Positions 13,128 to 48,049 of a stretch of DNA of 64,000 bases are shown in pieces (the stretch's first letter is position 1; each line of letters begins with the position of its first letter). Location of the stretch: assembly GCA_916610825.1 (NCBI GenBank), contig OU744453.1, positions 8,283,845 to 8,347,844 of the forward strand, written 5' to 3'. The notes under the pieces were generated by a model. The model saw only the letters and a program-made list of their open reading frames with translations. It ran no database searches and was not told where the DNA came from. The position numbers and the translations under genes are program-made. The stretch comes from Haliclystus octoradiatus. Taxonomy: Eukaryota; Cnidaria; Staurozoa; Stauromedusae; Haliclystidae.

Positions 13128-15482
13128 ATGGCTTATCGCTTGTTCGAAGGAACGAAGCATGCTGCATTATATAGTAAGTTCCGACCAGGCTATACACCTG
13201 ATCTTTACGAATATATTTTGAGTTATTTGATGAAAGGAAATCCAAATTTTGATCAACTTATTGATGTTGGCTGTGGATCTGGACAAAGTACAAGATATTT
13301 GGCTGGAAAATTTACGCATGTGCTAGCAACAGATATCAGCGAAGCTCAGATAAAAGCTGTGAGTTGGGTGCATTTCTGACGTTAAAGTCATTAAAATAGA
13401 CCCGTAGAATAAAATTTAATTATCAATCCGATAATTATCTGATGTGATAGATTGTTATGAGTTATGACATTATTGCGAGACAAAGGCCCTTCTAACCTTC
13501 AAGCCAAAGAACATGCACTGCACAAGCTATTAGACTTGTCAACACAAAATAAATTGAATAATCATGTCAAGAGACAGATTTCAACTACTACGAGTAAGCA
13601 GGCTGAGCTGTAATAACTGAAGACTGTAAAGCTAGCTTGCTAATTAGTTTTCACTTGTTTACTGCTCACTTTAAATACTACCAAAGTGTGGGCCTATATC
13701 TTGTATTTGGTGCAAGGCCAAACATAAACAGGCATAATAGATCGTGAAAAAGTCTGATCCAATTCGTAATTGAAAAAATCCTATCCTAATCTGAAAAAAA
13801 TATGACTGTATCGGATTCACAGACCTCTATTCCATTCATAGTGAGTCTTTAGTTTCATTGACAGATCTGGGGTTGGTCTTAAGCCCTGGGCAAACGACGG
13901 CAACATTTGCGCGACTTTTAAATAATTCGAAAATCCTTGTTGTTTAGCCATTCTTTCGATTTTGTCTGACGTGTTGCATCGTGTATTTTATTTGTATTTT
14001 GTTTGAAAGATTTTCCAAGACTTTCCAACGATTTTTGTTGTCGAACGTCTTCGTTATCCTTTTCGAACTATTTCGTTCGAAATGTATCGAGCTCTTCCGA
14101 TGTTGTGGCTTTTCCATAGCTTCTCTTTAAGATCAATTTGGGTTTTTTAGAAAAGTCTCAAGAAAGTCGTGCCCGTTTAGCCGCTCTTGAAAAACTGCCT
14201 TGGAAAACGAAAAACACTCATCGGATAAAACAGATTTGTTGCGCAAAAGTTGCCGTCGTATGCCCAGGGCTTTAGTTGTAGTCTACATCGATCATTTTTC
14301 ATCATTATCATTATACAAACAAACACAATTGATCGTAGTGTACTATAGGCTTAGGCTACCTGTAATATGCCTTGATATACACATAAAATGCTGATCCAAA
14401 ACTGGGGATTTAATATTCTGCTTAATTTAATGTGCAATCACACTGTGGATGATTATCAATTAGACAACGATCTTGAGCTGTGTACCTTTCCAAAAGGCAT
14501 GATGTTGAATGCTAAATCTCATATACTCCTACCATTCTCTGAAACTCCCAAAACTCTGGATTGCAACTATAGTTTTGAGTGATGATGACAAAAGAGGTTT
14601 TTCAAAAAGCAATTTTGAAATTCAAAATGCAATGTTACAATAAAAATGTGTTTTGGATGTAACCTTTTGATTTTTGATGGCCATATACTAACGAACTTTC
14701 AATAATCCTGCTATTTTTGACATTTTGACCATACAACCTGGAATAATTTATAGATTTTTACAATATTAATTGTGTATTCCAATCTCCTAGAAAGTCTGAC
14801 TGCATAACCCTGCCCTTCAAAAAGTTCATGAACTGTTTGTGAACATGTCATGATTTTTACCAATATCCATGAACTGTTTCTAACACCTTATAAACATTTC
14901 ATGAACGGCTTCTGGTATAGTTCATAAACATGAACAATTATAGTACATATCGTACATTTTAAGAAACCATAACTGTTGATAATTTTGACGTTTTTACTAC
15001 TTTTTATTAAAGAAATGAATCTCTTACGAATGTGGTTGAAATGTCTGTGGCCGATTATACCTTGTATCATAGTACCACATCTAGTTATCAATCATACCAT
15101 ACTAAAGTTGAAGGAGAAGAAGAATTATTATTGAAAGGATTTCAAAACAGGTATGCAACGTGTTTACATTGTATTGTATATTTTTTTCACTAGGCAATGA
15201 TTTCCTATTCTTGACATCCAATCTATTGATGTCTCTAATGTCATAGTTGGTCATATAATAGGGCCGTGATATCATCACCAATTTTGAGATGATGCCAAAT
15301 GTTGTGTCACCTGTTCTCTTTCATCGAATCATGAGGGATCATAATAGTGGTTATAATTTTTATCAACCCATATCAATTGTCGGCTGATGAATGCACTTCA
15401 GAGCACCCAATCACCAGAAGAAACAATGATTACCGTTAACTATCCTTTGTTTGTTGTCTTATCTCGAAAGACATCGATTTAA
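13128..15482 (+). pseudogene. SAM-dependent methyltransferase gene, decayed duplicate
   Basis: Exon 1 (13128-13358) is open for 77 codons and ends before a GTGAGT donor. It contains SAM-binding motif I, LIDVGCGSGQST, and the following LATDIS strand. Exons 2 and 3 of the sister copy (37242-38835) are absent: the sequence jumps from intron 1 to the region downstream of exon 3. Exon 4 is recognisable at 15013-15150 and exon 5 at 15383-15482, both the same lengths as in the sister (138 and 100 nt). The exon 5 acceptor AG is changed to CG at 15381-15382. A 390-bp MITE sits in the joined intron. Without motif II and the substrate region it cannot make the enzyme. A truncated transcript remains possible. 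Confidence 0.85.
13882..14271. mobile_element. MITE, PIF/Harbinger-like, with 3-bp TTA target duplication
   Basis: Termini AGCCCTGGGCAAACGACGGC (13882) and its inverse ending CCCAGGGCT (14271) form TIRs of about 23 bp with few mismatches. TTA flanks it on both sides (13879-13881 and 14272-14274). The sister duplicate lacks it at the matching site near 37140, which confirms insertion after duplication. A 3-bp TTA duplication fits PIF/Harbinger. There is no coding capacity in 390 bp. Confidence 0.75.
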
Positions 15483-24000: not shown

Positions 24001-24059
24001 TGTTCTCTAAATGATATTAAGCAATGAAATAGTTTGTTTAATAGGTCAGGGCCTTTCTC
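21027..24059 (-). CDS. BEL/Pao 2 pol: RT (part), RNase H, integrase
   Basis: An open frame of about 1010 codons after the stop at 24060-24062, with the first methionine at 23987. Residues counted from that methionine: RT catalytic box YMDD at 78-81; RNase H with AFSDGGS (aspartate about 250), an IELVGAL segment (about 295) and YWVDSK (aspartate about 325). A lysine/arginine-rich linker spans 423-440. An HHCC zinc-binding part with GHGG and CIEC lies at 580-621. The integrase core has AVDFFGPF (aspartate about 654), SDYGTNF and HMNGRVERL. The frame continues upstream without a shift into the gag-protease frame, so a single nonsense codon splits the polyprotein. The product would reverse-transcribe and integrate the element in virus-like particles. 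Confidence 0.9.
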   Translation of the reverse strand, partial: EKGPDLLNKLFHCLISFREHAVAFLGDIRKMFNMVSLREEDRPFQRFLWWGEDENIYSYEWKRLIFGDAPSPDLAINALNYLVTNFSQELIDGSQVIMKNTYMDDVAGSCANEEDAKMTISEVNDILAKGQFGIKYWHSNKSQVEKEVNKELLTCDNIETNVLGHCWDKNTDLISLRKGKHNITEEVTKRNILGFIASVWDPLGILNPVMVGLRIQFQQLWRHNYDWDDKLGNQLSERWRENMINATTYLDSCIKRSLTPNNSTGDVEVHAFSDGGSEAYGTVVYFRWQTDDGSIETRYVASKSFVTPVKGVWTIPRIELVGALVMVRLVKSVMKSLHCDPKSVTYWVDSKVVLHWIRAKDSNRNKVFVETRVAEIQESVDSERFRYVPIAKNIADVLTKETPQPDLEQFYEVPSFLKEEIIPQFESAKVKEAIDKEQVLEEVLPPRKKKNKLKKRRETKKEVKNARIQVAQFRDLTEDDEKKISDIKETGKILETTSKAISWIEAVDLVKQRSEVKTTEEAQMLLLQAMQGTEKFKSDLKYRKLCAVYDAQHKVVRVGGRLHSIEEFHLNVAAPVIIPTVKFPKGNTCEEADRFHILLLLAEHIHSQAGHGGSNRCKIMAEQCGLWICKAKKLFDYVKNRCIECRKRWNPLLSQQMGLIPEFCFAIGEPPFKHTAVDFFGPFKTKVGRRSVMNGHAALFTCSTVRAIHIEFCYDMEGGEGMSSDKFLSAFRRFVSLKGVKVSTMYSDYGTNFVGSEDFIAKERENWDNQVIVKELRTENEKRGVNFQWIWNTPTASHMNGRVERLIRSVRYALDVVVGYHDKLLSGDEWSTVLYEISYLINSRPLWPHRGQDPLEVDGTITPNFLLHGHGECVPQSMVTNDCAVVLPKRVDAIERRVQTFWRAWMQNMPRSLLLRPKWLEKAENVNVGDLVILHKSNVGSDAPRAMWELGIIRDTYPGADGMVRKVKVQSRKGTYQRPITKLCLIATAAELKDNVVLPEREQQFIVDVQ

Positions 24060-26571
24060 TTAGACATCATTCAAGCAAAACCCAAGTGAGTTTCTTCTGG
24101 CTGCATTCCAAACGATCCTTACTGGGGTTGATTCACTGTCATTTCTAATAACATGTTGGTGTATAATGTAATATGCTGATTCTTCGGGCTTTGCTTCTAC
24201 TAATTCCACAAATCCAGATTGTACAAGTTTTGCCATTTCTTTAGAATACAGTTCAAATTCAAGAGTTCTTTTCAGTCTTTTCTTCTGTCGATGAAGATCC
24301 TTTGCTGCTTCATTGTAATTGTTTGGAAGTCCTTCGGGATAACCTTCTTTCCATGGCAAGGCAACTTCAACCCTTCCTTCTTTATTGATCGTTGTGTTAA
24401 GCTCTACTGATTTAATAAAATTATATTCAATGATTTGATTATCTGAACATACACATTTCTTGGTAGGTGAAACTCCAGTTAAATCGGAAACAAATACTGA
24501 TTTAACTTTGTTAACACAATCTTCTGGTTCCATCTTTGAGATTCTGTAAATCTTTCTCTGTTTCTGTTTCTCAATTACTCCTACTATGGCCCAGCCCAAT
24601 GGATATTTAATGCCTATTGGTGCATGCGGATTTTCGATTTCCTTCTCAGCCGGTGGTGTTATGAATAAGGTTTCTTGGATGAAGGCTTGTGCATCTCTGC
24701 CAATCAAAATGTCTATTGTTCCACCTTGTATGTCTACTTTTTCTTTGATCCCTTTCAGATATGTATAGTCTTCAAAGAAGGTTGAGTCAATTTTTGGGAT
24801 GTCCTCACAGATTCTGTCCATAGAGTACACAGTCAATGTTCCCCCATTAATATGGTCGCTATCTTTGATTTCTATATCTAATTCTGTAGATTTCTCTGAT
24901 TGCTGTCCACCACCTGCGACACTGTAATGTAGTGTTGTATTTGTACCTTCGATTCCTAATCTTTGGGCAAATTCTTTACTTATCAAAGATGTATCTGAAC
25001 CTCCATCTATGAAACATCGTGCTTTCAGCCATTCTTTTTCTTTCCCTTTGCATTTTACGTCAATGATGACTACTGGTAGTCTAGTGGATTGTTTTGGTGC
25101 GTGATTAGCAGATTTAAGTATCAACGCATTGTTATTTGCAGTCTGACTGCTTTCCTCGTTGTTGTTGCTACTAGAAGAAATATTTTGTGTAGATTGATGT
25201 GTATTTATTTCATGGTTGTTGGATGACTCTACAATCATACACAGCATATCATTGTGTCGACCATTGCATTTGCTGCATTTTGAACAAGTATCTTGTCTTC
25301 TATGGGATGTATCCAAGCAGCTGAAGCAAAATCCTTTTTTTCGAACATAAGCCAAACGATCCTTTGGTAACCATCTTTTAAATGCGAAGCAATCTTCTAG
25401 TTTGTGTTGATGTTTACATTCTTTCCTTCCACAAAGATATTTTTCTTCAACATCATAGGACTTTGTAATTGCATTAATTTTACTAGATCTGTTTTTGCTT
25501 GTTTCTTGAAGCATTGGAGTAGTACGTCTTTTTTCACTGCTTATGCTGCTGTAAGTTGTTGCTAATTCTCTTAAATGGGCAATGATCCTCTTTACATCTA
25601 ATTCAATTGGACTCAAATTATTTATTGTTCTTGTTTCATTTGTAATTTGCAACGATGTCTTTATTGTATTTTGGAAGTCTGCTGGTACTTTTCTCATTAT
25701 GTCATTGGTGAATACAATTCCTTTTGCACGTTCATGACAGCCAGCACTCGCAATCTGATGACAATAATTTTCAATACTGTTAATAAAAACGAGAATCTCT
25801 TCTCTGTCTTTGATTTTTATTGCCTTTACTTTTCTGTATTCGGTTTCAATGTCCTGGATGATTCTTTCCTTTGTTAAGGCGATCTCCATATTATCCCATA
25901 CATCTTTAATAGTCTCACATGTATTTATGCATAACTGCCATTCATCTGGTATTGATTTTTTCACCCAGTGTATAATTATTGTACTTTGATGGATTGCTGC
26001 AGCTTCCATAGTGTCAGTAAATGTTTTCTTCCAAAAATAATATTTTCGTGGAATCCCATCCCATTCAGGGGGTTCAAATCCTGACAACTTTATAGTGCTA
26101 TAATTACGCTTTGGTTTTTCAGTTTTACTGTATTCCGGCTTGCTACTTTCTTGCAATCTGACTTCTAATTCCATCTTCTTAAGTTCATGCTCCATCATCT
26201 TAGCATCTTCAATCTCTTTGTTTTTGTATTTCTTTCTTGATATATATCGTTTTAGCTTGTCCATTACAATCCCACATTCTTCTAGAATTCGACTTTCTTC
26301 TTCTTCCCACTTTTGTATCTCTTTATCATATAGTTCTTTGGTAATTTCCCCGTTTCTTTTTCCCTATTTCTTAGAAGTAAATTTCAACATTTCTCTCTAC
26401 ATCTTTTGCAGCAGATTGTAGGCATGCTGTCTTCTCTGTTGCCTCTTCGAGGTCATGACAGGTTTCTTCATCCCTTGTTACTTCTTCAAGTAGATTTGTA
26501 GTTCTTTTCACAAGATCATCATATCTTTTGATACTTTTCTTCAATTTCCTGATGCAAAGTTCTACTTCCAT
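24060..26571 (-). pseudogene. BEL/Pao 2 gag-protease and RT N-terminus, two breaks
   Basis: The probable start is the methionine at 26571, just inside the 5' LTR and priming region. The first 66 codons end at a stop (26371-26373). The frame is then shifted until a 734-codon frame, whose first methionine is at 26264, runs to the stop at 24060-24062. Within the 734 residues: a charged helical gag region, zinc-knuckle cysteine/histidine clusters at about 278-345 (including CFSCLDTSHRRQDTC), an aspartic protease motif FIDGGSDTSLI at about 417-428 and PLGWAIVG beyond 550. The last part, NSLGFCLNDV, is the RT N-terminus and continues in frame past the stop. The two lesions look recent. Suppression or a second site cannot be excluded. 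Confidence 0.85.
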
Positions 26572-26602
26572 GGCTCCAAGCCTTACAGGTATTAGAATTT
26601 TC

Positions 26603-26967
26603 TGTTTTGCACAGCTTTCAACAGCTTGTGACTTTTTAGAAAACTCAAAGGCGAATCTGACAAATATCAATCTTTGAATAAAATCAAATCAACAACAACA
26701 ACAGACATATCCTTTGTTGTGCTTAATCTATTCACTATAATATCCTTTTGTAAATTCTAATTTGCCCTTTGGCTAAACCAAACTAAGTTAACTCTAAAAC
26801 ATAGTAATCAAAAAATACACCCTTTTGGAAACATGTGCTCTTCTATACTCTAGCCTCACATTCGCAATTAATACATCTAAATGAGACTAGTGAATAATGT
26901 TCAATTTAAACATTAAATATAATCAATAACAAATTATGCTAAACTGAAGAAAGTTGAATTCATAACA
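26603..26967 (-). repeat. 5' LTR of BEL/Pao 2
   Basis: 365 bp matching 20594-20958. It is flanked outwardly by the target duplication TAAGC. The primer binding site should lie at about 26580-26602 on the minus strand, but no tRNA match was recognised there. Confidence 0.93.
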
Positions 26968-30103: not shown

Positions 30104-30273
30104 ATACATAAATATGCGCACGCGTCGTATGATCAATGATGGCTCCGCTAGCTTTTGAAACGAAATCTGTAGCCTGCAGTACCTAGGCTTTAATTTTTAC
30201 TTATTGATAAGATGGCTTATCGCTTGTTCGAAGGAACAAAGCATGCTGACGTATACAGTAAATTCCGACCAGG

Positions 30274-32581
30274 GGCAATCCTGACTTCTACGGTATCAAA
30301 ATCGTGTTTACGTTTTAGGAATTTATAATTGGTGTGAACAACCCACCTTTCCGAAAACATTGACGCGCTTGTAGACATCACATGTCTGTCAGCTACAACC
30401 CATTTGCTGCTGAAAAGTACCTCGTTTTCAAGCTTTGTATGTTATCAATTATCCGTCCTCCGGTTATAGCTTGAAAAAAGCCGGTTTTTATGTTTTTCAA
30501 CTTTAAAATGTCTCTCATACAAAAACGGGCGATACAATTCATTTCATTTCTTAGTATGTCATAGTCAAACGTGTATCGAAGTGATTTAAAAAAACTAGAT
30601 AAAAAAATATCAAGTCTATATTTAGAAACAGCCATTTAAGTTGACCTCGGTGTGATTTCACCTCTTTTCAGATTTTGAAAAAAGCCGGTTTTCTACTTTT
30701 TTTCACTTTAAATGTCTCTCATACTAAAACGGGCTATACAATTCATTTCATTTCTTAGTATGTCATAGTCAAACGTGTATCGAAGTGATTTAAAAAAACT
30801 AGATGAAAAAATATCAAGTCTATATTTAGAAACAGCCATTTAAGTTGACCTCGGTGTGATTTCACCTCTTTTCAGATTTTGAAAAAAGCCGGTTTTCTAC
30901 TTTTTTTCACTTTAAATGTCTCTCATACTAAAACGGGCAATACAATTCATTTCATTTCTTAGTATGTCATAGTCAAACGTGTATCGAAGTGATTTAAAAA
31001 AACTAGATGGAAAAATATCAAGTCTATATTTAGAAACAGCCATTTAAGTTGACCTCGGTGTGATTTCACCTCTTTTCAGATTTTGAAAAAAGCCGGTTTC
31101 TACTTTTTTTCACTTTAAATGTCTCTCATACTAAAACGGGCAATACAATTCATTTCATTTCTTAGTATGTCATAGTCAAACGTGTATCGAAGTGATTTAA
31201 AAAATCTAGATGGAAAAATATCAAGTCTATATTTAGAAACAGCCATTTAAGTTGACCTAGGTGTGATTTCACGTCTTTTCAGATTTTGAAAAAAGCCGGT
31301 TTTTATGTTTTTCAACTTTAAATGTCTCTCATACTAAAACGGGAGATACAATTCACTTCATTTCTTAGTATGTCATAGTCAAACGTGTATCGAAGTGATT
31401 TAAAAAAACTAGATGAAAAAATATCAAGTCTATATTTAGAAACAGCCATTTAAGTTGACCTCGGTGTGATTTCACCTCTTTTCAGATTTTGAAAAAAGCC
31501 GGTTTTCTACTTTTTTTCACTTTAAATGTCTCTCATACTAAAACGGGCAATTGAATTGAATCGCCCGTTTTAGTATGAGAAATATTTAAACTTGAGAAAG
31601 TAGAAAAACCGGCTTTTTTCAAAATCTGAAAAGACGTGAAATCACACCTAGGTCAACTTAAATGGCTGTTTCTAAATATAGACTTGATATTTTTTCATCT
31701 AGTTTTTTTAAATCACTTCGATACACGTTTGACTATGACATACTAAGAAATGAAATGAATTGTATTGCCCGTTTTAGTATGAGAGACATTTAAAGTGAAA
31801 AAAAGTAGAAAACCGGCTTTTTTCAAAATCTGAAAAGAGGTGAAATCACACCGAGGTCAACTTAAATGGCTGTTTCTAAATATAGACTTGATATTTTTTC
31901 ATCTAGTTTTTTTAAATCACTTCGATACACGTTTGACTATGACATACTAAGAAATGAAATGAATTGTATTGCCCGTTTTAGTATGAGAGACATTTAAAGT
32001 GAAAAAAAGTAGAAAACCGGCTTTTTTCAAAATCTGAAAAGAGGTGAAATCACACCGAGGTCAACTTAAATGGCTGTTTCTAAATATAGACTTGATATTT
32101 TTTTATCTAGTTTTTTTAAATCACTTCGATAGACGTTTGACTATGACATACTAAGAAATGAAATGAATTGTATCGCCCGTTTTTGTATGAGAGACATTTA
32201 AAGTTGAAAAACATAAAAACCGGCTTTTTTCAAGCTATAACCGGAGGACGGATAATTAATAACATACAAAGCTTGAAAACGAGGTACTTTTCAGCAGCAA
32301 ATGGGTTGTAGCTGACAGACATGTGATGTCTACAAGCGCGTCAATGTTTTCGGAAAGGTGGGTTGTTCACACCAATTAAAATTCCTAAAACGTAAACACG
32401 ATTTTGATACCGTAGAAGTCAGGATTGAAAACGAGGTACTTTTCAGCAGCAAATGGGTTGTAGCTGACAGACATGTGATGTCTACAAGCGCGTCAATGTT
32501 TTCGGAAAGGTGGGTTGTTCACACCAATTAAAATTCCTAAAACGTAAACACGATTTTGATACCGTAGAAGTCAGGATTGCC
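30274..32581. mobile_element. Foldback-type transposon in methyltransferase exon 1
   Basis: 2308 bp that is almost entirely one inverted repeat, with its centre near 31549. Ends are GGCAATCC and GGATTGCC. CGACCAGG (8 bp; 9 bp if the preceding C is counted) is duplicated at 30266-30273 and 32582-32589. Each arm is made of a unit of about 204 bp containing GAAAAAAGCCGGTTTT. The left arm has unit landmarks at 30473, 30677, 30881, 31085, 31288 and 31491; the right arm at 31613, 31817, 32021 and 32224. At the right end the terminal 152 bp is itself doubled (32274-32425 and 32426-32577). There is no transposase. The design resembles Drosophila FB elements; an 8-9 bp duplication also fits Mutator-like or Merlin relatives. 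Confidence 0.9.
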
Positions 32582-33709
32582 CGACCAGGCTATACACCTG
32601 ATCTTTACGAATATATTTTGAGTTATTTGAAGAAAGGAAATCCAAATTTTGATCAACTTATTGATGTTGGCTGTGGACCTGGTCAAAGTACAAGATATTT
32701 GGCTGGAAAATTTACGCATGTGCTAGCAACAGATATCAGCGAAGCTCAAATAAATGCTGTGAGTTGTGTTCATTCCTGAAATTAAATTACACCCCTAGGC
32801 AGAAAATCTGATTATCAATCTGCTGTGATAGACTATTATGACATTATTGCGAGACAATAACAAAGGTCAGGCCTTTTTAGCTAGCCTTAAGGCCACATAC
32901 CATGTTGCACTGCAGAAGCTTTTAGACATGTCAACACCACAAAACGCTATCATGTCAAGAGACAAATTTCCACTACTATGAGTATATACTGGCTGAGCTG
33001 TAGGCTAACTGACGACTGTAGCTAGGCTGCTAGCAGTAGCTAGCTAACTAGCTATCACTCAAGTGTTTAGTTTACTGCTAACTTCAAATGCTACCAAAGG
33101 AAAGTGTGGGCATATATTTTGCATTTGGTACAAGGCCAAACATAACCTTAAAACCAGTGTCTATAACTTGTGTGCCTGCGTGCTGCGTGCTTTTTCAGGA
33201 AATACGTCATAATTTATCACCTTTTCGTATTTATGATGTTTAGCGTCTCAATGTTGTAAAAGAAGTTCTAGCTTGGCTAAATTTGGCAGTCGATGTCATG
33301 TCTTACTTGACGGGGACTTTTTCTATTCCAGACTGAGTTCCAGATTAAGTTAATTTATTAAGAGAATAAAGGATAGCTCCACTACGCTCGGACTCATGGT
33401 GAATGATATAATAATCAAAATAAACCAATTGAAATCAACCAATAGAATATCATATCAATCAAATCATCATGCAAAGAAAAATCAAATCGAATCAAATTCA
33501 AAAAAGTAAATCAATCCAATCGAATGATATAAAAATCAGATCAAATAAAAAAATCAACTGCAATAAAATAAAATAAAATAGATTAAAACAATATCCAAAT
33601 AATATAATAATATAAAGAAAAATATATCCAAATACTAAATCAAATAAAAAAAAGGAAAAAATGTTAACGCAGACCGATGGGATTGAACTCCAGAACCCAG
33701 GCGCCTGAT

Positions 33710-34125
33710 TATCATCATCATCATCATCATCATTTATTCAGAACCTGATAAGCTACAGGAGCTTTTTTTCACAGGACTGATTGAAACAAATATAATATAT
33801 ATGTGTACATGTGTACACGATAAGTATAAAAGGTAAGGTTTATAGTTGGTATATAGATAATATTTACAATAAAGTCTATGGCTAAAAAAAGAAAATTTGT
33901 CACGATTTGCTATGCAATTGCCTCTTGAGAAGATGTTTAAAACTGGTTCCACTAGCAACAATCTTCATCTCAGACGGAAGGTCATTCCACTTATGAGCAC
34001 CAGCATACTTGAATGAGTGTCTATGGCTTGACTCAATGTAGATGTCATTGTGGGAATGTGCACGTGTTCTAATGGAGTGTGGTTTTTGAAACAAATTGGA
34101 GAGCAAGGGAGGAGCTAAAGCAAGG
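33710..34125 (-). mobile_element. 5'-truncated LINE tail inserted in the tRNA-like head of R2
   Basis: The minus-strand frame entering at 34125 and ending at about 33903 reads as the C-terminus of a CR1/L2/Jockey-type LINE ORF2: HSIRTRAHSH, SFKYAGAHKWNDLP and a FKHLLKRQL ending. The 3' end is a TGA-repeat tail (33712-33733). TGAT occurs on both sides (33706-33709 and 34126-34129), though the tail repeat makes this duplication ambiguous. The R sequence resumes without loss. Confidence 0.8.
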
Positions 34126-34824
34126 TGATGCAGACGCTCCACCATTAGACCATACCAAGATAGAATAGATGAAGTGATTTTCACTACTTATAGTACAGGT
34201 GTGAGTTTTAAATGACGTGCGAAATTGTCTCTTCTTAAGCTGATGTCGCAGCAGAATTAAAACATTTTTATTAAACCAAATAAAACCATCACGACTGGCT
34301 TAGCAGTTTAATGTAATAAATAACTTCAGAAAACAAAACAAACAATGAATATATAACACTGTCTTGTCTAAGCCCCCAAACAAATGATGAATTGTGGGTT
34401 TAAAGTTCTCATGGTCAAAACGCAACAAAAATTATTTTCGAAGTTTCACCTTAAATAGTGATGAACTTACAGAACCATTGAAACCTTTCATTAACCATTT
34501 CAATTGACGAGAAGAAGAAAACAATCATGTGTTCTACCAATGAAGAGATAATCACGATGTAAACTAATCCAGGAGTATTAGAAAACATTTCATTTTAATA
34601 ATGCAATTGTAATCTTGCTAAGCTGCAAGTCGACCATCATGGCGGGCAATGGAAAAAAATTTATGTCAAATCCAGCTAAAAAATTGGAATTATCACACAG
34701 CTTGCCCATTGTAGTTTTAACAATAAAATGGTGTTTCTTGCGCAATCGTTTTTGTTCGACCTTTGTTAGCACGCAAAGCAGTATGTTGAACGTTATTTCA
34801 AGAGAACAAAAGATTTAGTCAAAA

Positions 34825-35440
34825 ATGAAATGTAATGAAATGAATTGAAATGAAATGAAATGAAATGAAATGAAATGAAATGAAATGAAATGAAATGAAA
34901 TGAAATGAAATGAAATGAAATGAAATGAAATGAAATGAAATGAAATGAAATGAAATGAAATGAAATGGAATGAAATGAAATGAAATGAAATGAAATGAAA
35001 TGAAATGGAATGAAATGAAATGAAATGAAATGAAATGAAATGAAATGAAATGAAATGAAATGAAATGAAATGAAATGAAATGAAATGAAATGAAATGAAA
35101 TGAAATGAAATGAAATGAAATGAAATGATATGAAATGAAATGAAATGAAATGAAATGAAATGAAATGAAATGAAATGAAATGAAATGAAATGAAATGAAA
35201 TGAAATGAAATGAAATGAAATGAAATGAAATGAAATGAAATGAAATGAAATGAAATGAAATGAAATGAAATGAAATGAAATGAAATGAAATGAAATGAAA
35301 TGAAATGAAATGAAATGAAATGAAATGAAATGAAATGAAATGAAATGAAATGAAATGAAATGAAATGAAATGAAATGAAATGAAATGAAATGAAATGAAA
35401 TGAAATGAAATGAAATGAAATGAAATGAAATGAAATGAAA
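34825..35440. repeat. Expanded TGAAA pentanucleotide microsatellite, about 600 bp
   Basis: Roughly 120 TGAAA units with only a few interruptions (for example single-base changes near 34967, 35007 and 35128). The homologous place in R4 (about 43093-43115) has only three or four units. Very long frames of repeated FISFH in all three minus-strand frames are a by-product and not genes. Confidence 0.97.
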
Positions 35441-35495
35441 GTTTCCACCATGACAGGATAGACTCAAGGTCACTTACGTAACCATGAGTCAAAAA

Positions 35496-36220
35496 TAGCT
35501 CCGCTACGCTCGGACTCATGGTGAATGATATAATAATCAAAATATACAAATTGAAATCAAATTCAATAGAATATCAAATCAATCTAATCATCATGCAAAG
35601 AGAAATCAAATCAAATCAACTTCAATAAAATAAACAATGAAATAAAATAAAATAAATTTAAAAAAAAAATCAAAGCAAAAGAAAATTAATCAAACCAATA
35701 TTATAATTATTTAAGTTAGATTAATAAAATAAATAAAAAATTTGAGATAGATGTTAAGAATGGAATAATAAAATGAAAGTTGAAAAAATTCAAAAGAAGG
35801 TAGAGTAGAACTATCAGAAAAGAAATATATCCAAATAATAAATCAAATAAAAAAGGAAAAAATGTTAATGCAGACCGATGGGATTGAACTCCAAACCCCA
35901 TGCGCCTGATGCAGACGCTCCACCACCTAGACCATACCAAGATCATAGATCGCAATCTGAACAATAACTCTGTGAAGTCTAGGCGGATATTGCGCAATCG
36001 ATGATTGTCTATGTATTGTTTGTGGGCAACGCAGTATGCGACTTGCTATTTATACAAAAATCACAGTAATGGTCACAATCACGATGGCCATGTGAAAACA
36101 TAGTCGCAGCATAATATATAAATCGCCCCATAATCACGCTTTCGTAACCGTGATTTACCAATTTGTTTTGAACCTGATAGCATAGACTCATGGATACTCA
36201 GTAACCATGAGTCAAAAATA
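35496..36220 (-). repeat. Family R repeat, copy R3, variant subfamily
   Basis: It shares the closing motif, AT-rich part and a complete tRNA-like head (35870-35942) with R1. The block between the head and the starting motif (35945-36200) is different and shorter. It ends ACCATGAGTC then AAAAATA at 36220. Confidence 0.75.
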
Positions 36221-39200
36221 AAGCCTTAGCTAAGGATTTTCCATGAATTGTTAAACATGATTGGGCATGAAATCCATCACACGAAAACGCAATTATTTGT
36301 AGGTGTTAGAAACTTCTGAAATGTTTATCGGCCATCTATTAACAAGTCAGGAATAAATTATAAGAAAGTCTGTATAATCAGTGTGATATATATATTACCT
36401 TGAAATTACTAAAAATAAGTTATGAAATTTTTAATTCAAAATTGGTAGGCCTATAATATGCTATTGTATATAAAACGTTATTGCTGTCATTAATATCATT
36501 ATTTAGCGTTGAATATTAAATGTTTAATAAATCATATTATTATTAAATAAATGAAGTATGGAGTAGAGTCCCCAACAATTACGACATAACAGCGACTGCA
36601 AAATTTAGCCAAGCTTGAACTTTTTTCATAACATCGAGATGCTAGACATCGTAAATTCGAAAAGATGATAGATAAATGAAATATTTCATGAAAAATCACG
36701 CAGCACGCACACGCTCAAGTTACAGACACCGCCTGGCCACTGCTAAACCGATGCCTTGATTATAAAGAATATGTAGGCCTAGACTAATCATCAATATAAA
36801 TATTGTAGAAATGAATCTTTTGTGACGTGTAAGTCTGTAAGATCTTAATCACAGAATAATGATTTAAATCTTCTAATATACCTAATAAAACTGCACAGTA
36901 AATAATGCAATCACTGTGATGTGACATTGGCTCTGGAAAATTTATAATTTTTCATAAAATGATCTAATTAATTCAGCAAAAATCCTATCCGAATATATTG
37001 TGCAAAATTCTTATCCAATCCGAAGCTAAAAATATCCTATCCTAATCTGAAAAACATATGACTGTATCGGATTTACAGACCTCTATTCCATTCATGGTGA
37101 GTCTTTAGTTTTATTGACAGGTCTGGGTTAGGTCTAATAGTTGTAGTCAATATCGATCATTTCTGATCCTTCAGATCTGGCTGTTATATATATGCTCATG
37201 TTCGATAAGAAATATGAAATATATTTATGTTTATAATTCAGGCCAAGCAGTCAAACCATGCTGCGAACATCAAATTTATCACAAGCCCTGCTGAAGTTAT
37301 TCCAGTAGAAGATGATAGTGTCGATCTAATCACATGTGGTCAATCATTCCATTGGTTTGATGCTGATAAGTTTTACAATGAATGTCGAAGAGTATTAAAA
37401 TCTTCTGGCTGTCTGGCAATATATGGATATCCATTTAATTATTTCAAAGATGATTCTTGTCAAAAAGTATTTGAAGATGTAAGACATGTGTTGAAAAATC
37501 GATATTCATTATTTAGTAAGTCATTCATTTTGCGATACATAATAATGATAGAATCAAGTAGGCTAGGCCGTACCTAAATGTTTATGTTTTCCTAACTATG
37601 TTCTTAGGCTTGTGTTATATGGACGAAAAACACTGAATTTAATTAGATACAACACCGAATAGCATTGAGTTTGAATTTTGGGTTATTGCCTACAGACGAC
37701 ACCAATGTTAATAATCTTGAAAAACCTTGTCAAATTTGAAAGAAAGTACCTTTCTTAAAATCAAACTGCATGATTTGAAACCCTTGAAGTGTTTTGTTTG
37801 CATTATTATTTTGCACTATTCTGTATGAAATTATTATCTTGTTTAATGAATAATGATCAAATAGAATGCGAGGAATACATATTTTGCTTACGAGGTCGTC
37901 CAGGAATATGCTGGTTATCTGCCCTAGCCATGATTACTGAAAATATCCCATAAATCGATGATCAATTTATTATAACTCATTTTCAACTGTTATATATATA
38001 GTCCTACAGTTTTCATAACAGTTCCGATATGTTTTTTTTTCTAAATCTGAGGCTACAGACAAGGGCTATTTTCGAACATAGATAGCAACATAGCAACTAA
38101 TTAATCTACAATTTATTAGTTTTTCAAACTCAAATTCAAAGTCTTCTTGTAAATTTGATGGATGAGAACGACTTTTTCCACACTAGTTCTGTTAGCATGT
38201 GTACTGAAGGTCTGAATTAATCACACAATTAGGGTAAAAATATGTTCCTTATAAGACTCTAGTTTACGAGACTCTAGTTTTTGTTTCCTAAACTTTTCGA
38301 GTGATTAAATCATTAAATGATTTCACACCTTTTACTTAAATGAATAATGTTCATTTATTGTCATAAATATAATACAAATGCTTACTTTTGTTTTTATCTT
38401 CTATAAAGAAAAGTATGCAAATTATTTGCCTTGTGCTTGTAAAACTTGAATACAACTTTTTCCTTTTCTTCCTTCTTAATTACTAGCCTTCCTGGAATCC
38501 TCCAAATTTTATCGAACCCTGATCACACAGGGTAATGGAGTTTGCCTACAGGAGATTCCTCTGGTACCATCTACTATCCTACTAACTAGAATTACGTCAT
38601 CCAGAAATCAAATCCAGTCAATGGATAGATAATCAAAGTTTTTTAAAATCATACGTAATATCATAGTATATCATACTGCTGGATGGATTAGAAAGTCAAA
38701 CATGCAATAGTCTATATATGCCTTATAATTTCTGTTGCAGTTTCAAAAGACAATTGAGTCTTATTTTTCTGACAGAAAAGCTCTACTTGACAATTACTAC
38801 AGGGATGTTGTTCCACCATTTGAAGATGTAACAAGGTATTATTGAATATCATTATCATTATACAATCAAACGCAGTTGATCGTAATGTATTATATCCCCA
38901 TCTGTAATACGCTTTGGTAGGCCTATAGACATCAAATGCTGACCCAATACTTTGGATTGCTTAGGCATTCAATTTCTGCAACCAAAAACTAAAATTAAAT
39001 AAAAGGAATAAGCTTAAAACTAAAAACTAAGATAAAAAGCTAAGAAACATTAAGCAAAAGAGTGGTACACTCTTCGAACAATGCCGCAACAGTTGAAGTT
39101 GGCAGTAGTCAAGACAAGGATTGCTACGACTTCATTTAACTATAGTGAAATCAACATCAGAAAAATTTTAAGGCAAGTAGTTCCATGTTAGTAACATATC

Positions 39201-40274
39201 ATAAAATGATACGTTGATCGATGTTTGAGGCAGCAAGAAAGAAATGTCATGTATTACGCTGTTTTGTAGGCGATTTTACGGAGTAAGGGGTAAGTTTAAG
39301 GCGAGGATGTAATGATGTCGCATGTTAAATATTACATAAACCTATTATAAAACTCTGGATTGCAACTAGAGTTTTGAGTTATGATAACAAAATAAGATTT
39401 TGAATAAAGGCAATATTGAAATTCAAATTGCAATGTTGAAGTAAAATAGTGTTGGATGTATCCTTTTGACTAATTGACTTTTGATGGTAACGAAGTTCTT
39501 GATAATCCTTCAGTTTGAAAATTTGAGCATGCAACCTGGAAAAATTAATGGACTATTACAATAGTGTATTAAAATCTCTTAGAACGACTGACTGTATACC
39601 CTTGCCCCTGAGCTGTTTCGAATACATTATGAAAGTGTTAAAGAACTGTTCATGAAAACGTTCATGAACATGAACAATTAGCTCACATTTTCTACGTTTT
39701 CAGAAACCATACTTGTTGATAATTTTGATGTTTTTACTACTTTTTATTGAAGAAATGAATCTCTCGAGAATGTGGTTGAAATTTCCGTGGCCAATTATAC
39801 TTTGTATCATAGTACCTCATCTGGTTATCAATCGTACCATGCTAAAGTTGAAGGAGAAGAAGAATTATTATTGCAAGGATTTCAAAAAAGGTATGCAACG
39901 TGTTTACATTGTATTATATACTTTTTCACTACGCAATGATTTCCTATTCTTGACATCCAATCTATTGATGTCTTTAATGTCATAGTTGGTCACATAATGG
40001 AGTCATGATATCATCACCAATTTTGAGATGATGCTGAATGTTGTGTCATCTGTCCTCTATCGTCCTACAAATCCTGTGAAAAAAGTTACTATGATGATGA
40101 TAACTTAATAAAAGGTTCTGATTTGCAACATGCAATATTTTTGTATAACTTTTTTCAACCCTTATCGATTGTAGGCTGATGAATGCACTTCAGAGCACCC
40201 AATCACCAGAAGAAACAATGATTACCATATACTATCCTTTGTTTGTTGTGTTATCTCGAAAGTTGTCGATTTAA

Positions 40275-42665
40275 TGTACCTGATTGTTACCAGTTGAACT
40301 GTGAAAAATATTTGATGTTACTATTTAGTGGATAGATCAATTGTGTGCTAGACTTGGTAATTGCTTTTAGAATATCACATATCTCACCTTATTTCTTCAG
40401 ATACGAGAAAATATAGATAAAATAATTATATGGTAACTTTATTGCAAACTGAATTTTGTTAATAAATATATTCGGTTAGCTCTGTTTGATTAATGGTGCT
40501 GTTTGCATCTATCGAAATCAAATATTGTATTGTTTTCAAAATAGAACGCGAGTCACGAAGAATCCAACATAATAGTTTCTCAAACCCTTTACATTTTTCA
40601 TTACTAAAAATATAGTAATAATAGCTACATCTGAATATCGAAACTCCCAACCTCTCATTTTATTTTATTTTTCCGAGTGGAATCTTAAATTAGTAATTAA
40701 TAATTACACAGTATTGCATTTGATTTGATTTTATAAAAATTAATCAATTTGTCGCTGGTCGTCGCCATTTTCAGAACAGATGTACCCTGTTTGGATGATT
40801 ATTACACATATTCGATGAGCAGTTCATCAACATATTAATTGGCCTGTTATTGTGTTCCTGAACTCTGTTGATGCTTTGCAGGGGATCTGCAACACACTCT
40901 CTCGTAAGCTATACTATCAAATTGGTTTAATCGAATGCAATGCAAAGATAACTGTAAAAAAAGTTATGAAAATTCATCAATTAAATGGGTAAATTTATTT
41001 TCCCTTTAACGTTCATGAACTGTTTCCATAGTTTATTATCATTGCTTTTCACTCTGTGATGAAATGATTCACACGAAACGTTAGAGGGTCTTGCTTAATT
41101 ACATTTTATTTATTCGCCACTTATAAAATTCATGAACAGTTCCGGACCTGTTTATTATGTGCTACTGAAGTTTATGAGAATTTGCGAAGTGAATTTTTGC
41201 AAGAGATCTAAACATGATGAATCATCTGTAAAATCAAAATATTCACACCACTTTTCACGGACGGACTAAACTAAAACACAAAATTAAAACACGAGACTAA
41301 AACACAAAATAATTGGAACGAAACAATATACATGACACGAAAAATTTTAAAACAGGTTCGCTTAGAAAAGGATTTCTCAATTTTGATACGCATAATCGGA
41401 GATATTTGAAGTTGAATAAACCTTATCTTCGATCATTCACGCTTACTATAGAAAAGGTGAAGCCAGAATTATAATAACTCGTATCCCCTCTCTCGCAAAA
41501 TAAAAAGTTTCAAACGTCCAAGTCACCTATGCCCACACCCTTAGGGCACCTTTTCTGCTTGAAATAAATATATTTTATTATCAAATACATGAAATACAAA
41601 TATTTTTAGTTGTTGGATTTATTTTTCTATGTCAAAAGTATGTCAATCATCCTCCGCGGCATGTAGTTGGGACTGGGTTCACCCGCTGTTTTGGGTACAC
41701 ATCACCTCCATTTGTGACAGGTGTTTGTCATGTGTTTGAGCCTTTTCTGAAGGAAACCCTATTTCAACTAATAGATGCCCCTGTATCTCATTTGTTGCTC
41801 AGTTAAATTACCTCGTTTTGATCAGAAAAGGTGTCCCAAGCGTGTAGACATAGCTGACTTGAAAGTTGAAAGTTTTGATTCCGTGAGAAAGACGATACGA
41901 TTTTTTAAAGTTTTCAATTGTCATTTTTCCTATAGTAAGCCCTCTTATCATTTAAACTATCGTCCGAGTTTTGAAAAAGTGCCTGATTGAAAATAGGGTA
42001 GATTCAATATTAAATTATCCGCTTATACGCGTTCAAATTAAGAAGTCATAATCACAATTATTCCTCATTCAGCTACTGAAATTTGTTTGAAAATTGTTCG
42101 TGTCATGTGCACTTTAAATGAAAGCTATAAACGCATGCTGCTAGTCTCTAGGAAAATAGTTACAACCTTATTGTATTTTTATTGATATTATGTTTTTAAT
42201 AATACGCTGTAGTTTCCTATTTTTTAAGCTTTGAGCCTTTTTTAGTAAGTTTTTGAAAAATGTCTATTGTGGAATTTCCTAATACATGAACGAAACAATC
42301 AAATTGAAGTATTGAGTTCGATTATCACTTCATAATTTTGAAAAGGTATTTCTAATTTTTGTTTCATTGCCTCACGGACTAGAGAAATAGGATCGCTGTC
42401 TCTGGGAATTTATTCTAATTAGTCTTGGCTATTCAGCTCTAACGCAGCATTTAAAAAGTATGTTTACAGCATCTAAATTATCGCAGATATTATAGTTCTT
42501 TTACAGCATCTAAAAAACGATTAAGTAGATAAATATAGCTTTTGCCAGGTAATCTTCTAGACGCTGCGTATTTTGAATATCAAAGCATAATTGATCTCAG
42601 ACAAATATCAATACTTTTAATCACCATTTAAGCATGGTCTTTATTAACACCAGTTTTTGGAAACA
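40275..42665. other. Non-coding 3' part of segmental duplication copy 2
   Basis: Matches 15483-17975 block by block. It contains the same diverged inverted repeat (about 41500-41900). No frame is conserved between the copies. Confidence 0.6.
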
Positions 42666-43034
42666 ACAACAATATCATCTAATATTAGATTAAATAGCAA
42701 GATACTGTATAGAATGTGATATAATTAAGTAAAGTATGCATATGATCTTCATCAGCACAAACGGAAGCAAATTAACGTCTATTGATTATAGGCATGTTAA
42801 GCGCTTGAAACTCTGAGTAAGGGAAACAAGCCTCATCTTTGTCTCTTATTCTATAGGGACCATGTTCTAACATAGTTCTAATGATCAAACTATCACAACA
42901 AATGACGAGGAAAAAGCCAATCTGATTATCGCCAATAATTTTTGAGCGTGTTTTTACCGCTTTTACTGAAGGACTTTAATCAAGACATTGAAAGTTTTGA
43001 GAGCCTTAGCAGAATTTATGATGGTTATACAGCT
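42666..43034. other. Unassigned sequence
   Basis: Nothing recognised between the duplication end and repeat R4. Confidence 0.4.
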
Positions 43035-43489
43035 TATTGACTCATGGTTACGTAAGTGACTTTGAGTCTATGCTGTCATGGTGGAAAAGTTTTCATTTCA
43101 TTTCATTTTTGACTAAATCTATTGTTCTTTTGAAATAACGTTCAACACACTGCTTTGCGTGCTAACAAAGGTCGAACAAAAAACGATTGCGCAAGAAACA
43201 CCATTTTATTGTTAAAAATACAATGGGCATGCTGTGTGATTATTCCAAATTTTTAGCCAAATTTTTTTGACAAATTTTTTTTTCCATTGCCCGCCATGAT
43301 GGCCGACTCGCAGCTTAGCGAGATTACAATTGCATTATTAAATGAAATGTTTTCTAATACTCCTGGATTAGTTTACATCGCGATTATCTCTTCATTGGTA
43401 GAACACATGATTGTTTTCTTCTTCTCGTCATTTGAAATGGTTAATGAAAGATTTTAATCGTTCTGTAACATCACTATTTGAGGTGAAAC

Positions 43490-43825
43490 TGTAGCGGGTG
43501 GAATGAGTCGATGTATTGATAAATTACTACACGCGTACATAGACGTTGATTAGATATATATTTGATGTAACAGTTGTAGCTGGCCACCAACAGTGAGAGG
43601 ATGAATAAGGGTTAATATGACCGTTGATAAACAGAGCCTCTATGAAGGTGGACCAGCTTTGCTATTATAGGTGCTGTCGCCACGAAGGGCAGACGTTAAG
43701 AGAGTTGATATATTACATACAGTGATTTACATTTACAAGGTATACGTGATTACAAACGGAAGCTTTACAGTTGACAAAGGAAATACATTATGGATAAGAC
43801 AATAGACATAAAACAATCCACTACA
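43490..43825. mobile_element. Solo LTR, 336 bp
   Basis: An insertion starting TGTAGCGGGTGG and ending CCACTACA, flanked by a 4-bp AAAC duplication (43486-43489 and 43826-43829). Copies R1 and R2 have an empty site here. TG...CA ends, size and a 4-bp duplication fit a gypsy-type solo LTR left by LTR-LTR recombination. It differs from the neighbouring gypsy LTR. Confidence 0.8.
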
Positions 43826-43914
43826 AAACTTCGAAGATAATTGTTGTTGTGTTTTGACAATGAGAACTTTTGAATCGACAATTCATCATTTGGTTGGGGG
43901 CTTAGACAAGACAG

Positions 43915-44085
43915 TGTAGTGACCGTTATCTACGTCACAACTGTGCTGTAATTAGCGACATAAATATGTATTGCGAAATAGATAATTATCGACATGATGC
44001 AGTCGAAAGTAATTCATTACAACTTTACCAAGCAAAACAACTAGTATTATTTGAGTATCTCTTCTCTATCTTTAACACAGCTACA
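43915..44085 (+). repeat. Gypsy 5' LTR
   Basis: 171 bp, TGTAGTGACC...CAGCTACA. The tRNA-Trp type primer binding site follows at 44087-44097. Confidence 0.93.
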
Positions 44086-44156
44086 TTGGTGACCCCGCAA
44101 GAACACACAAATCAAATATATTTTTACCTTTTTAATATCAACAACAATTCGTCAAC

Positions 44157-45026
44157 ATGTCAGTTCCTTCAACATCAACAACAAATAACGTCGCTCCTGC
44201 TCCAATGTCTGGTTCAATTGCTGATCAACCAATCTCGTATATTCACGCTATTGCTTATAAATTACCTGCTTTCAGGCCAAACGATCCTGCTTTATGGTTT
44301 ATGCAAGTAGAAGCCCATTTTGCAACCCATGGCACAAGTGTCGATGCAACCAAGTATAATTACGTCGTTGCTGCATTAACACCATCAATTGCTAGCGAAG
44401 TCAGAGATATTATTGCTTCTCCTCCTGCCGCTGATAAATACCACAAGCTAAAGCTGGCATTAATCGAGCGCACATCGCTCTCCAACAACCAGCGTATCCA
44501 TGCCTTGCTGGCGAACGAGCAACTCGGCGATAGAAAACCTACTCAATTGTATCGCCGTTTTCAACAACTACTCAATAAACACGACGAAATAGCTGATCCT
44601 CTTATCAAAGAACTTTATTTTCGTCGTTTACCAACTAGAGTTCGTGTTGCTCTAGCTACTTGTACATCTCTTCCTTTGAGCGAACAAGCAACGTTGGCTG
44701 ATGACATTATGGACGATCCTGGCTTACATTCAGGGCCCGAAGTTCCTTTTGGACAAGTGTCAGCGGTTTCTGATTCATTTCCGGTTGATCCGCAACTATT
44801 TTCAGTCCATAATCCGGAAGTCCGCAACGCGATCCGTAACGGACCGGTCGACCTAGCAGCTGAAATTGCAGCATTACGAAGAGAAGTTCAAGCACTAAAA
44901 CAGTCTCCACCCACATCTTCTCCTGTTTCTGATGGGCTTTGCTGGTATCACGCCCGTTTTGGTCAACGAGCTAATCGATGTAACAGCCCTTGTACCTGGT
45001 CGGGAAACGATCAAGCCAGCCGTTAA
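44157..45026 (+). CDS. Gypsy gag polyprotein
   Basis: An intact 289-codon frame. Residues 28-170 are a retrotransposon gag capsid-like region (AYKLPAFRPNDPALWFMQVE at about 32-51, then the LLANEQLGDRKPTQLYRR block). Near the C-terminus CWYHARFGQRANRC is a zinc-knuckle variant typical of this gypsy lineage. Gag forms the particle that packages element RNA. The frame ends at TAA 45024-45026 and overlaps pol by 37 nt in the -1 frame. GC content is visibly higher than in the surroundings. The start chosen is the first ATG after the primer site. Confidence 0.88.
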   Translation: MSVPSTSTTNNVAPAPMSGSIADQPISYIHAIAYKLPAFRPNDPALWFMQVEAHFATHGTSVDATKYNYVVAALTPSIASEVRDIIASPPAADKYHKLKLALIERTSLSNNQRIHALLANEQLGDRKPTQLYRRFQQLLNKHDEIADPLIKELYFRRLPTRVRVALATCTSLPLSEQATLADDIMDDPGLHSGPEVPFGQVSAVSDSFPVDPQLFSVHNPEVRNAIRNGPVDLAAEIAALRREVQALKQSPPTSSPVSDGLCWYHARFGQRANRCNSPCTWSGNDQASR

Positions 45027-47123
45027 TGACGACTACTGTGTCTGGCTCTTCTAGTCGTCTGCTATTTGTCCATGACACTGCTACTGGCATCACATTTCTA
45101 ATTGATACTGGTGCTGAAGTCAGTGTGTATCCAGCTAGTGTTCACGTCCGTCGTAACTGTCCTGCGCTGGAAACTCTCAAAGCTGCAAATGGCAGTCCAA
45201 TACGAACATTTGGCACACAGTCCATTATTTTGCATCTTGGTCTGCCCACACCGTTACCTTGGTCATTCCTTGTTGCTGAGATACAGCACCCGATCATTGG
45301 TGCTGACTTCCTTCGTCATTATGAACTCTTAGTCGACTTGAGGAACAATCAACTCATCAACGCTTCACAGTATTATCGTATTCCAGCTCAACTTTCAACT
45401 GTCATTTCTTCCACAATTTATCATGTTACTGCTGCAACTTCCCCATTTAACCAATTACTTAATGATTTTCCATCCATTACCCATCCCTGCTATACGGAAA
45501 TTGGTATCCATCATCAGGTCAAACATTTCATTCCTACAACAGGTCCTCCTACATTCGCCAAATCTCGCCGACTTGCCCCAGATCGTCTCGCAGCTGCTCG
45601 GAAAGACTTTGATGTCATGCTGTCCCTTGGTATCATCCGTCCTTCATCTAGCAGTTGGGCCTCTCCATTACATCTCGTTGCAAAAAAGTCTGGGAGTGGC
45701 GTCCATGTGGTGACTATCGTGCTCTCAATAATGCAACCATTCCTGATAGATATCCAATTCCACACATCCAAGACGTTGCTGCCTCTCTTCGTGGTATGAA
45801 AATTTTTTTCAAGATCGATTTGGTACGAGCATATCATCAAATCCCTGTCGCGCCAGAGGACATTCAAAAGACTGGCGTTACCACTCCCTTTGGCCTCTTC
45901 GAATTCACAAGGATGCCCTTTGGACTATGTAATGCGGCCCAAACATTTCAAAGCTTCATGGATGACGTCTGCCGCCCACTCAATTTTGTCCATGTCTATC
46001 TGGATGATATTCTCGTAGCTAGTCCAACCTTCGAACAACATCTAGTTGACTGTCGCAGCCTTTTCACACGCCTGGCAGAGTATGGTTTAATCATCTATCC
46101 TACCAACCAAGTGCCAATTTGGTCAAACCACTCTCGACTTTCTTGGGCATAAGATTGATGTTGCTGGAATCAGTCCATTGCCTGACCGTGTCGCTGCTAT
46201 TTCACAGATTCCAACCCCTACAGATCTTCGATAGTTGGACCTCTCCCAATCTCTAACGGTCACATTTATGTTTTTACAGTCATTGACCGCTACACACGTT
46301 GGCCAGAAGCCATTCCAATGTCAGATGCTACCGCTATGTCTTGTGCCAAAGCATTACTCTACCACTGGATATCACGTTTTGGGGTGCCTTCAACATTGAC
46401 TTCCGACAGGGGACACCAATTCATATCTGATCTCTGGACTGCACTCAGCACTCTTTTGGGTATTCATCGACAACGCACCACATCTTATCATCCACAGTCC
46501 AATGGCCTGGTTGAGCGTTTCCATCGGCAACCGAAAGCTTCCCTTCGTGCTCGTCTGACAGGACCCAACTGGACAGATGAACTACCTATTGTTCTCCTTG
46601 GCCTTCGTGCGCTGCAGTTAAAGAAGATTTGTCTTGCTCACCTTTTGAATTGGTTTATGGTTATCCTCTTCGATTACCTGGCGAATATTTTGCCCTTCCT
46701 ACAGGTACACCAGATCCTAATTCCTTCTTAGACAGTCTTCGTTCTTACATGCACCACATCACACCACCTGTCACAAAGTCTCATGGCCACTCACCTTCTC
46801 ACATTCCATCCGCACTCGATACGTCTCCCCATATTTTTGTTCGACACGATGCCCACCGTACTCCACTTCAACCACCATATGACGGACCTTTCAAGGTGCT
46901 ATCACGATACAAAGACTACTTCATCTTGGACTTTGGTCATCGTAAAGATTCGGTTTCTATTGCTCGTCTCAAACCTGCTTTCCTTCCTTCCTTGATTTTA
47001 AATACTCCTTTGGACTCTACAACTGGCAACACCAACAACACCATCCAGCCAACAAGTCTTCCTGTTAAAAGTACAACTCGCTGTGGTCGTCTCACTCAAC
47101 CACCTCTACGTTATTCTGCCTAA
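44990..47123 (+). pseudogene. Gypsy pol: protease, RT and truncated integrase, frameshifted
   Basis: Protease with LIDTGAEVSVYP at about 45090-45125. RT begins in the first frame (to 45799) and continues in another frame from about 45690 with [21 protein letters not shown], the [16 protein letters not shown] block and catalytic YLDDIL near 46000. A second frame change near 46100 precedes FLGHKI. At about 46232 the RT connection region jumps directly into integrase (VGPLPI), so RNase H and the integrase zinc finger are deleted. The integrase core keeps TSDRGHQF and NGLVERFHRQ; a third frame change at about 46615 precedes SPFELVYGYPLRLPG and the C-terminal YDGPFKVLSR part. Stop at 47121-47123. 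Confidence 0.9.
45002..45059 (+). promoter_or_regulatory. Programmed -1 ribosomal frameshift signal with possible pseudoknot
   Basis: Heptamer G GGA AAC at 45002-45008 lies in the right register of the gag frame for a -1 slip into pol, six codons before the gag stop. Five nt later a 6-bp stem (45014-45019 with 45042-45047) interleaves with a perfect 8-bp stem (28-35 with 52-59 of the 45000 block). Together these form an H-type pseudoknot layout. The heptamer, spacing and structure match known frameshift sites; function is inferred. Confidence 0.6.
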
Positions 47124-47164
47124 CCGTGAACATTGATCAAACATCCTCACTGGTGGGGGAGTAA

Positions 47165-47335
47165 TGTAGTGACCGTTATCTACGTCTCAACTGTACTGTA
47201 ATTAGCGACATAAATATGTATTGCGAAATAGATAATTATCGACATGATGTAGTCGAAAGTAATTCATTACAACTTTACCAAGCAAAACAACTAGTATTAT
47301 TTGAGTATCTCTTCTTTATCTTTAACACAGCTACA
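47165..47335 (+). repeat. Gypsy 3' LTR
   Basis: 171 bp, paired with 43915-44085. It is followed by target duplicate ACAG. Confidence 0.93.
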
Positions 47336-48049
47336 ACAGTATTATATATTTATTGTTTGTATTGTTTTCTGAAGTTATTTATTACATCAAACTGCTAAGC
47401 CAGTCGTCATGGTTTTATTTGCTACTCACACCTGTATTGTAAGTAGTGAAAATTACATCATTTGTTGTTATCTTGGTATGGTCTAGTGGTGAAGCGTTCG
47501 CATTAGGCGCGCGGGATCTGGAGTTCAATCCCATCGGTCTGCCTAACGTTTCTTTTCATCTTTTTACTTTGATTTATTATTTGGATATATTTTTCTTTAT
47601 ATTATTTGGATATTGTTATAATTTATTTTATTTGATTGGATTGATTTACTGTTTTGAATTTGATTTGGTTTGATTTTTCATTGCATGATGATTTGATTGA
47701 TTTGATATTCTAATGAATTTGATTTCCATTGGTTTATTTTGATTATTAAATTATTCACCATGAGTCTGAGCGTAGCGGAGCTATTTTTCTTTATATTATT
47801 ATATTATTTGGATATTGTTGTAATTTATTTTATTTGATTGAAGTTGATTTTTTTATTTGATCTGATTTTTATATCATTCAATTGGATTGATTTACTTTTT
47901 TGAATTTGATTTGATTTTTCTTTGCATGATTATTTGATTGATTTGATATTCTATTGAATTTGATTTCAATTGGTTTATTTTGATTATTATATTATTCACC
48001 ATGAGTCCGAGCGTAGCGAATCTATTTTTTTTTTAATGATGGGTATACA

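Follow-up and report, generated by a model that had tools for sequence, protein, structure and literature searches.

A five-exon methyltransferase gene is split by an inserted element

The window that we analysed is a stretch of 64,000 nucleotides (C10:8283845-8347844) of a 262-Mb genome in 33 contigs, and positions given without a contig name refer to this window. On its plus strand lies a methyltransferase gene, here called copy D, whose first exon is divided into a 5' part (30212..30273, from the ATG to the end of a left target duplicate) and a 3' part (32590..32758, followed by the donor GTGAGT), with exons 2 to 5 located at 37242..37478 (ending in GAT, before GTAAGA), 38741..38835, 39753..39890 and 40175..40274, the last of them closing with the stop codon TAA. 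When the five exons are joined across the flanks of the element, 801 nucleotides are obtained, that is 266 amino acids and a stop codon, and all introns are of the GT-AG type. A later GTAAGT was also considered as the donor of exon 2; the resulting frame fails to join exon 3, and thus the end of exon 2 is best set at 37478.

The product of the joined exons matches Methyltransf_11 (4e-23 in a Pfam profile search), its SAM-binding domain spanning residues 45-137, and in a phmmer search the nearest solved chains were PDB 4hg2 (2.7e-16) and, next to it, 3g5t, a trans-aconitate 3-methyltransferase (1.7e-13). With a Methyltransf_11 domain that carries VGCGPG, which we take to be SAM motif I, the product is a class I SAM methyltransferase, and the five-exon, 266-residue enzyme of this class described in an earlier note on this DNA is borne out by the continuous reading, the introns and the profile match. 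It has the SAM-binding domain in common with 4hg2 and 3g5t; here, the genes form a local four-copy cluster. Within intron 1 of copy D, about 124 AAATG units are arrayed at 34823-35440, adjoining repeats that are common to 1-882 and 43034-48033.

Copy D is one of four paralogues, two of which are intact

A genome-wide search with the methyltransferase protein gave 22 matches, 19 of which fall in one cluster on C10 (8256804-8324115), and exon-by-exon tblastn separates this cluster into four copies, A, B, C and D. Copies A and B are placed 2-27 kb upstream of the window, on the same contig as D. Copy A runs on the minus strand, with tblastn exon matches at C10:8269344-8269108 and 8265552-8265316 for the first two exons and at C10:8261872-8261780, 8258053-8257916 and 8256902-8256804 for the last three, and copy B extends, again by tblastn, on the plus strand from C10:8269674 to 8282002. 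The two stand head to head, with start codons 329 bp apart, and each has all five exons, a 266-codon open frame, GT-AG introns and an empty site where D carries the element. The claim that D is the only copy with all exons therefore holds within the window but not genome-wide, as A and B are complete upstream of it.

Copy C is a plus-strand pseudogene composed of exon 1 (13128..13358), exon 4 (15013..15150) and exon 5 (15383..15482). It lacks exons 2 and 3, and the acceptor of its exon 5 is broken (CG for AG). Both the empty site and the loss of exons 2 and 3 that had been reported for this sister copy at 13128 were seen, and the empty site, TTCCGACCAGGCTATACACC, is present in all three of the other exon-1 copies (A, B and C).

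Some further features of the paralogues were observed. In copy C, a segment of about 400 bp (13880-14280) replaces the stretch where exons 2 and 3 would be expected, and it has inverted ends (AAGCCCTGGGCA and TGCCCAGGGCTT) and is MITE-like by eye. Identity between B and D amounts to 91% at 39677-40361 of the window and 90-91% at exon 1, but drops to 79-80% in the blocks surrounding exons 2 and 3, and this unevenness along the gene possibly reflects gene conversion. Intron 1 of copy B contains, at C10:8271436-8271625, a relative (about 75%) of the 204-bp unit described below.

The element in exon 1 of copy D is a foldback without a core

Between two plus-strand copies of the 8-bp target duplicate CGACCAGG (left, 30266..30273; right, 32582..32589) lies a non-autonomous foldback element of 2308 bp (30274..32581), with the ends GGCAATCC...GGATTGCC. 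Its left terminal domain of about 197 bp (30274..30470), common to other copies, is followed by a left arm of about 5.3 copies of a 204-bp unit on the plus strand (30471..31557) and a right arm of about 3.3 inverted units on the minus strand (31558..32233), the inner boundaries of both arms being approximate. The right terminal domain (32234..32581) contains an exact tandem duplication of 152 bp (32273-32424 and 32425-32576); such adjacent direct copies were not found in the other fetched stretches of the family, L021-L040. The inverted arms are 97% identical over 897 aligned bases, and there is no central core between them. We also considered a nine-base duplicate, CCGACCAGG, which was rejected as it breaks the symmetry of the ends, and as a length of eight bases suits those sister copies whose duplicates are exact.

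The insertion looks recent and probably inactivates copy D

Translation from the ATG of copy D enters the element and yields 38 residues before it meets a stop codon, without reaching SAM motif I. The insert and one duplicate together make 2316 bp, a multiple of three, and therefore it is stop codons, and not the frame, that block D. Loss of the element leaving both duplicates behind would retain 8 extra bases and thus cause a frameshift. Two places for a restart of translation were considered and rejected: the 3' part of exon 1 is preceded by 38 open codons that contain no Met, and Met is likewise absent from the core of D, between residue 1 and exon 5 of the 266-residue reading. Judged by its sequence, copy D is probably a null.

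Pairwise dN/dS is 0.41 for A-B (16 synonymous and 26 non-synonymous changes), 0.20 for A-D and 0.26 for B-D. Copy C, which was kept outside the count of private changes and compared pairwise over exons 1, 4 and 5 alone, gives 0.28 with A and 0.36 with both B and D. Private changes, synonymous and non-synonymous, number 9 and 9 in A, 7 and 17 in B, and 24 and 18 in D, where one of the 18, at codon 210, is a counting artefact; these changes are unpolarised, and the count for D includes the A-B stem. Set against 21% synonymous sites, the synonymous share of D-private changes has a P of about 3e-7, and the A-B comparison a P of about 0.008. Because this share is high in D, we infer that copy D was under constraint through much of its history. 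Copy B itself may be weakly constrained; its private changes are near the neutral share, and thus the case for B covering the loss of D is the weaker one.

No other lesion was seen across the 801 coding bases of D or at its splice sites, and the previous description of the foldback insertion, with its exact 8-bp duplicate, as the sole lesion was accurate. End domains of the closest family copies are 99% alike, those of other copies down to 79%. As no other lesion accompanies it, as the target duplicate is exact and as the closest end domains are 99% alike, the insertion in D looks recent. The recent gene loss that had been suggested thus stands in so far as one paralogue is inactivated, but it is not the loss of a sole complete gene, A and B being intact. 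The same signs of youth also favour a presence/absence polymorphism, in which other haplotypes carry an intact D. The one assembly has a single D locus, which speaks against such a polymorphism without being direct counter-evidence; we give it slightly less than an even chance, and it is compatible with the explanation that we prefer below.

The foldback family includes two copies with an open transposase frame

The left 207 bp of the D element match at least 42 places in the genome (40 of 83 candidates were scored), and twenty family stretches, L021-L040, were fetched. In its general plan, the family has end domains of about 197 bp and inverted arms built of tandem 204-bp units. Eleven two-ended copies range from 2.3 to 11.2 kb and have 3-37 units per orientation (a count that excludes both L024 copies and L034-L040), and the arms of family copies measure about 0.8-5 kb; a twelfth two-ended copy, in L024, is 1.4 kb long. 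Among these 12 copies, D included, the 8-bp flanks agree at all eight positions in five, at seven in two and at 0-3 in five, and of 132 control cross-pairs of flanks none reaches 7 or more matches; this count excludes the second L024 copy, which has no proper left end, and L034-L040, which are one-ended or diverged. The copies with 0-3 matching positions (C8 at 5.88 Mb, the first copy of L024, L025, L032 and L033) may be recombinants. GG is found at both ends of 10 of the 12, the exceptions being the left end of L033 (TA) and the right end of L030 (last base changed). The copy at C8:5877190-5887955, 10.8 kb long and without a target duplicate, is made almost entirely of 204-bp units (37 and 13 by orientation).

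Two copies, at 16.6 Mb of C10 (L025) and at 9.54 Mb of C7 (L027), each possess a core of 2.3-2.4 kb in which an open frame runs, from stop to stop, for 317 and 315 codons, respectively. In each frame DDE_Tnp_IS1595 is the sole profile match at E <= 0.001 (3.4e-15 in L025 and 7.3e-17 in L027), and the two frames differ by 13 mismatches and one gap (98% identity). In the 299-aa reading, D141-60-D202-40-E243 was picked as a putative catalytic triad by motif and not by profile alignment. The transposase of the C7 copy is located at C7:9546551-9547447. This copy is flanked by an exact target duplicate, and the C10 copy by none. An open transposase frame is missing in nine of the 11 measured copies; the core of L033 holds a stop-bearing fragment, and that of L032 an ORF for a LINE-type reverse transcriptase. 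In L035, of which only the right end was found, a THAP/DDE_Tnp_4 ORF lies about 6 kb from the last family unit. The profile scan covered four ORFs, one each from L025, L027, L032 and L035, out of a set that also has ORFs in L037, L038 and L039, a second frame in L032 and two more in L035.

Genome-wide, there are 41 transposase-like matches, 34 of them with an internal stop. At C6:6448454-6450875, N-terminal fragments of the Merlin transposase follow one another every 360-410 bp or so, apparently as a tandem array built from the transposase gene.

The family is assigned to the Merlin superfamily

According to PMC8101967, the inverted repeats of Merlin elements measure 24-462 bp and start with 5'-GG, the duplicates are of 8-9 bp, the transposase domain is DDE_Tnp_IS1595, and internal tandem repeats occur in some of the elements; the published Merlin range set beside the D141/D202/E243 spacing comes from a figure legend of the same paper. 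As our family shares with Merlin (related to IS1595/IS1016) a DDE_Tnp_IS1595 transposase of about 300 aa, GG-ended termini and 8-bp duplicates, we assign it to this superfamily on sequence grounds. Its arms exceed the published 24-462 bp, a range which is no rule of membership, and each arm holds 3-37 tandem 204-bp units, most measured copies being coreless. A foldback is marked by long inverted arms containing tandem repeats, and given arms of this length we therefore regard the family as a foldback variant of Merlin.

Foldbacks may come independently from different lineages, and most of them seem to be Mutator elements, according to PMC4079207. It could thus be argued that the family is of the Mutator or P type, the usual foldback hosts, or depends on some other transposase, the IS1595-type gene being a passenger. 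An open frame in just two of the 11 measured copies would fit this idea, as would the THAP/DDE_Tnp_4 ORF of one-ended L035, which is unplaced as to inside or outside the element. However, duplicates of 8-9 bp and GG termini are Merlin features in the account of PMC8101967, the IS1595-type frame is located centrally, within the core, in both copies that carry it, and among the other two-ended copies the core of L032 carries a LINE-type reverse transcriptase; we thus consider a passenger gene unlikely and retain the assignment to Merlin.

Tandem repeats inside long inverted arms, as observed here, are described for Tetris (TIR-220) and Galileo (PMC4079207), and long inverted arms also for Tm1, assigned to Mutator, and Galileo, which belongs to the P superfamily. 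Foldbacks can be hard to assign without an autonomous copy, as for Tetris, for which none was found by the account in PMC4079207; unlike Tetris as presented there, the family described here has two copies with a transposase frame, of the Merlin type. As an open Merlin-type frame lies between these shared ends in both copies, the foldback structure can be tied to a further superfamily and arm growth becomes testable; the most units in one arm are 24 in transposase-bearing copies and 37 in the others. As one transposase-bearing copy has an exact duplicate, a single living lineage would offer both the foldback state and the transposase for joint study. No Merlin element with foldback arms was found by title in the open-licence literature; Repbase, where a long-armed Merlin may already be described, was outside the scope of this search. 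It seems somewhat more probable than the contrary that a Merlin lineage independently evolved foldback architecture, while still keeping copies with an open transposase frame. We find this mobile element to be the more interesting part of the locus, compared to the gene story.

A recent Merlin-foldback insertion best explains the state of copy D

In the scenario that we propose, a young non-autonomous foldback element of the Merlin superfamily would have entered exon 1 of D, copying 8 bp of the target. It was probably inserted in trans, by the Merlin transposase of long family members with the same ends, and paralogues A and B, of which A is the likelier, would probably cover the loss of D. 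We consider a recent insertion of this kind, breaking D as one of four paralogues, to be the best explanation overall, with a probability of roughly 87%. The gene side of it is quite ordinary, as one of four paralogues is lost to a young insertion while two intact copies adjoin it.

The earlier note had also proposed that the element might be spliced out as part of an exonised intron. Precise splicing-out was rejected, since the junction is GG and offers no GT. There is, however, a cryptic donor at 30258 which could act with the acceptor CAG of the right duplicate, and the element would then be removed as a new, introner-like intron. A scan of 28 donors and 31 acceptors gave 22 GT-AG pairs that are in frame and free of stops, the best of them joining 30257 to 32589; its acceptor score of 0.1 falls inside the range of D's own acceptors (-1.4 to 2.3), and introners that borrow splice sites from duplicates or from the neighbouring exon are reported in PMC9860276. 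Yet the donor at 30258 (GTAAAT in D versus GTAAGT in A, B and C) scores -2.0, less than any of the four real donors that were scored (-1.4 to 4.3), all these scores resting on typical consensus frequencies, and the spliced product would miss five residues, KFRPG, which A, B and C retain. Moreover, 64 of 731 simulated placements of the same element in D, the real site included, score equally well or better. The introners of PMC9860276 are likewise DNA elements that lie in an exon, have inverted ends and are bordered by a target duplicate; unlike them, the D element offers no precise or outstanding splice pair, and read-through hits a stop. With no GT at the junction and so many placements performing as well, the proposal is weakly founded, and we consider removal as an intron very unlikely. 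Least probable of all is an assembly artefact (merged haplotypes or a mis-joined repeat), for which the exact 152-bp tandem duplication at the right end, peculiar among stretches L021-L040, might be invoked, against the clean 8-bp duplicate at both junctions, the proper family termini and a gene frame that resumes exactly.

Other repeats in the window

Long minus-strand ORFs (21027-26363) that look, by eye, like a retroelement lie between direct repeats at 20593-20958 and 26602-26967, the two repeats being 99% identical. A 56-bp tandem repeat located at 19064-19269 recurs in inverse orientation at 48451-48968.
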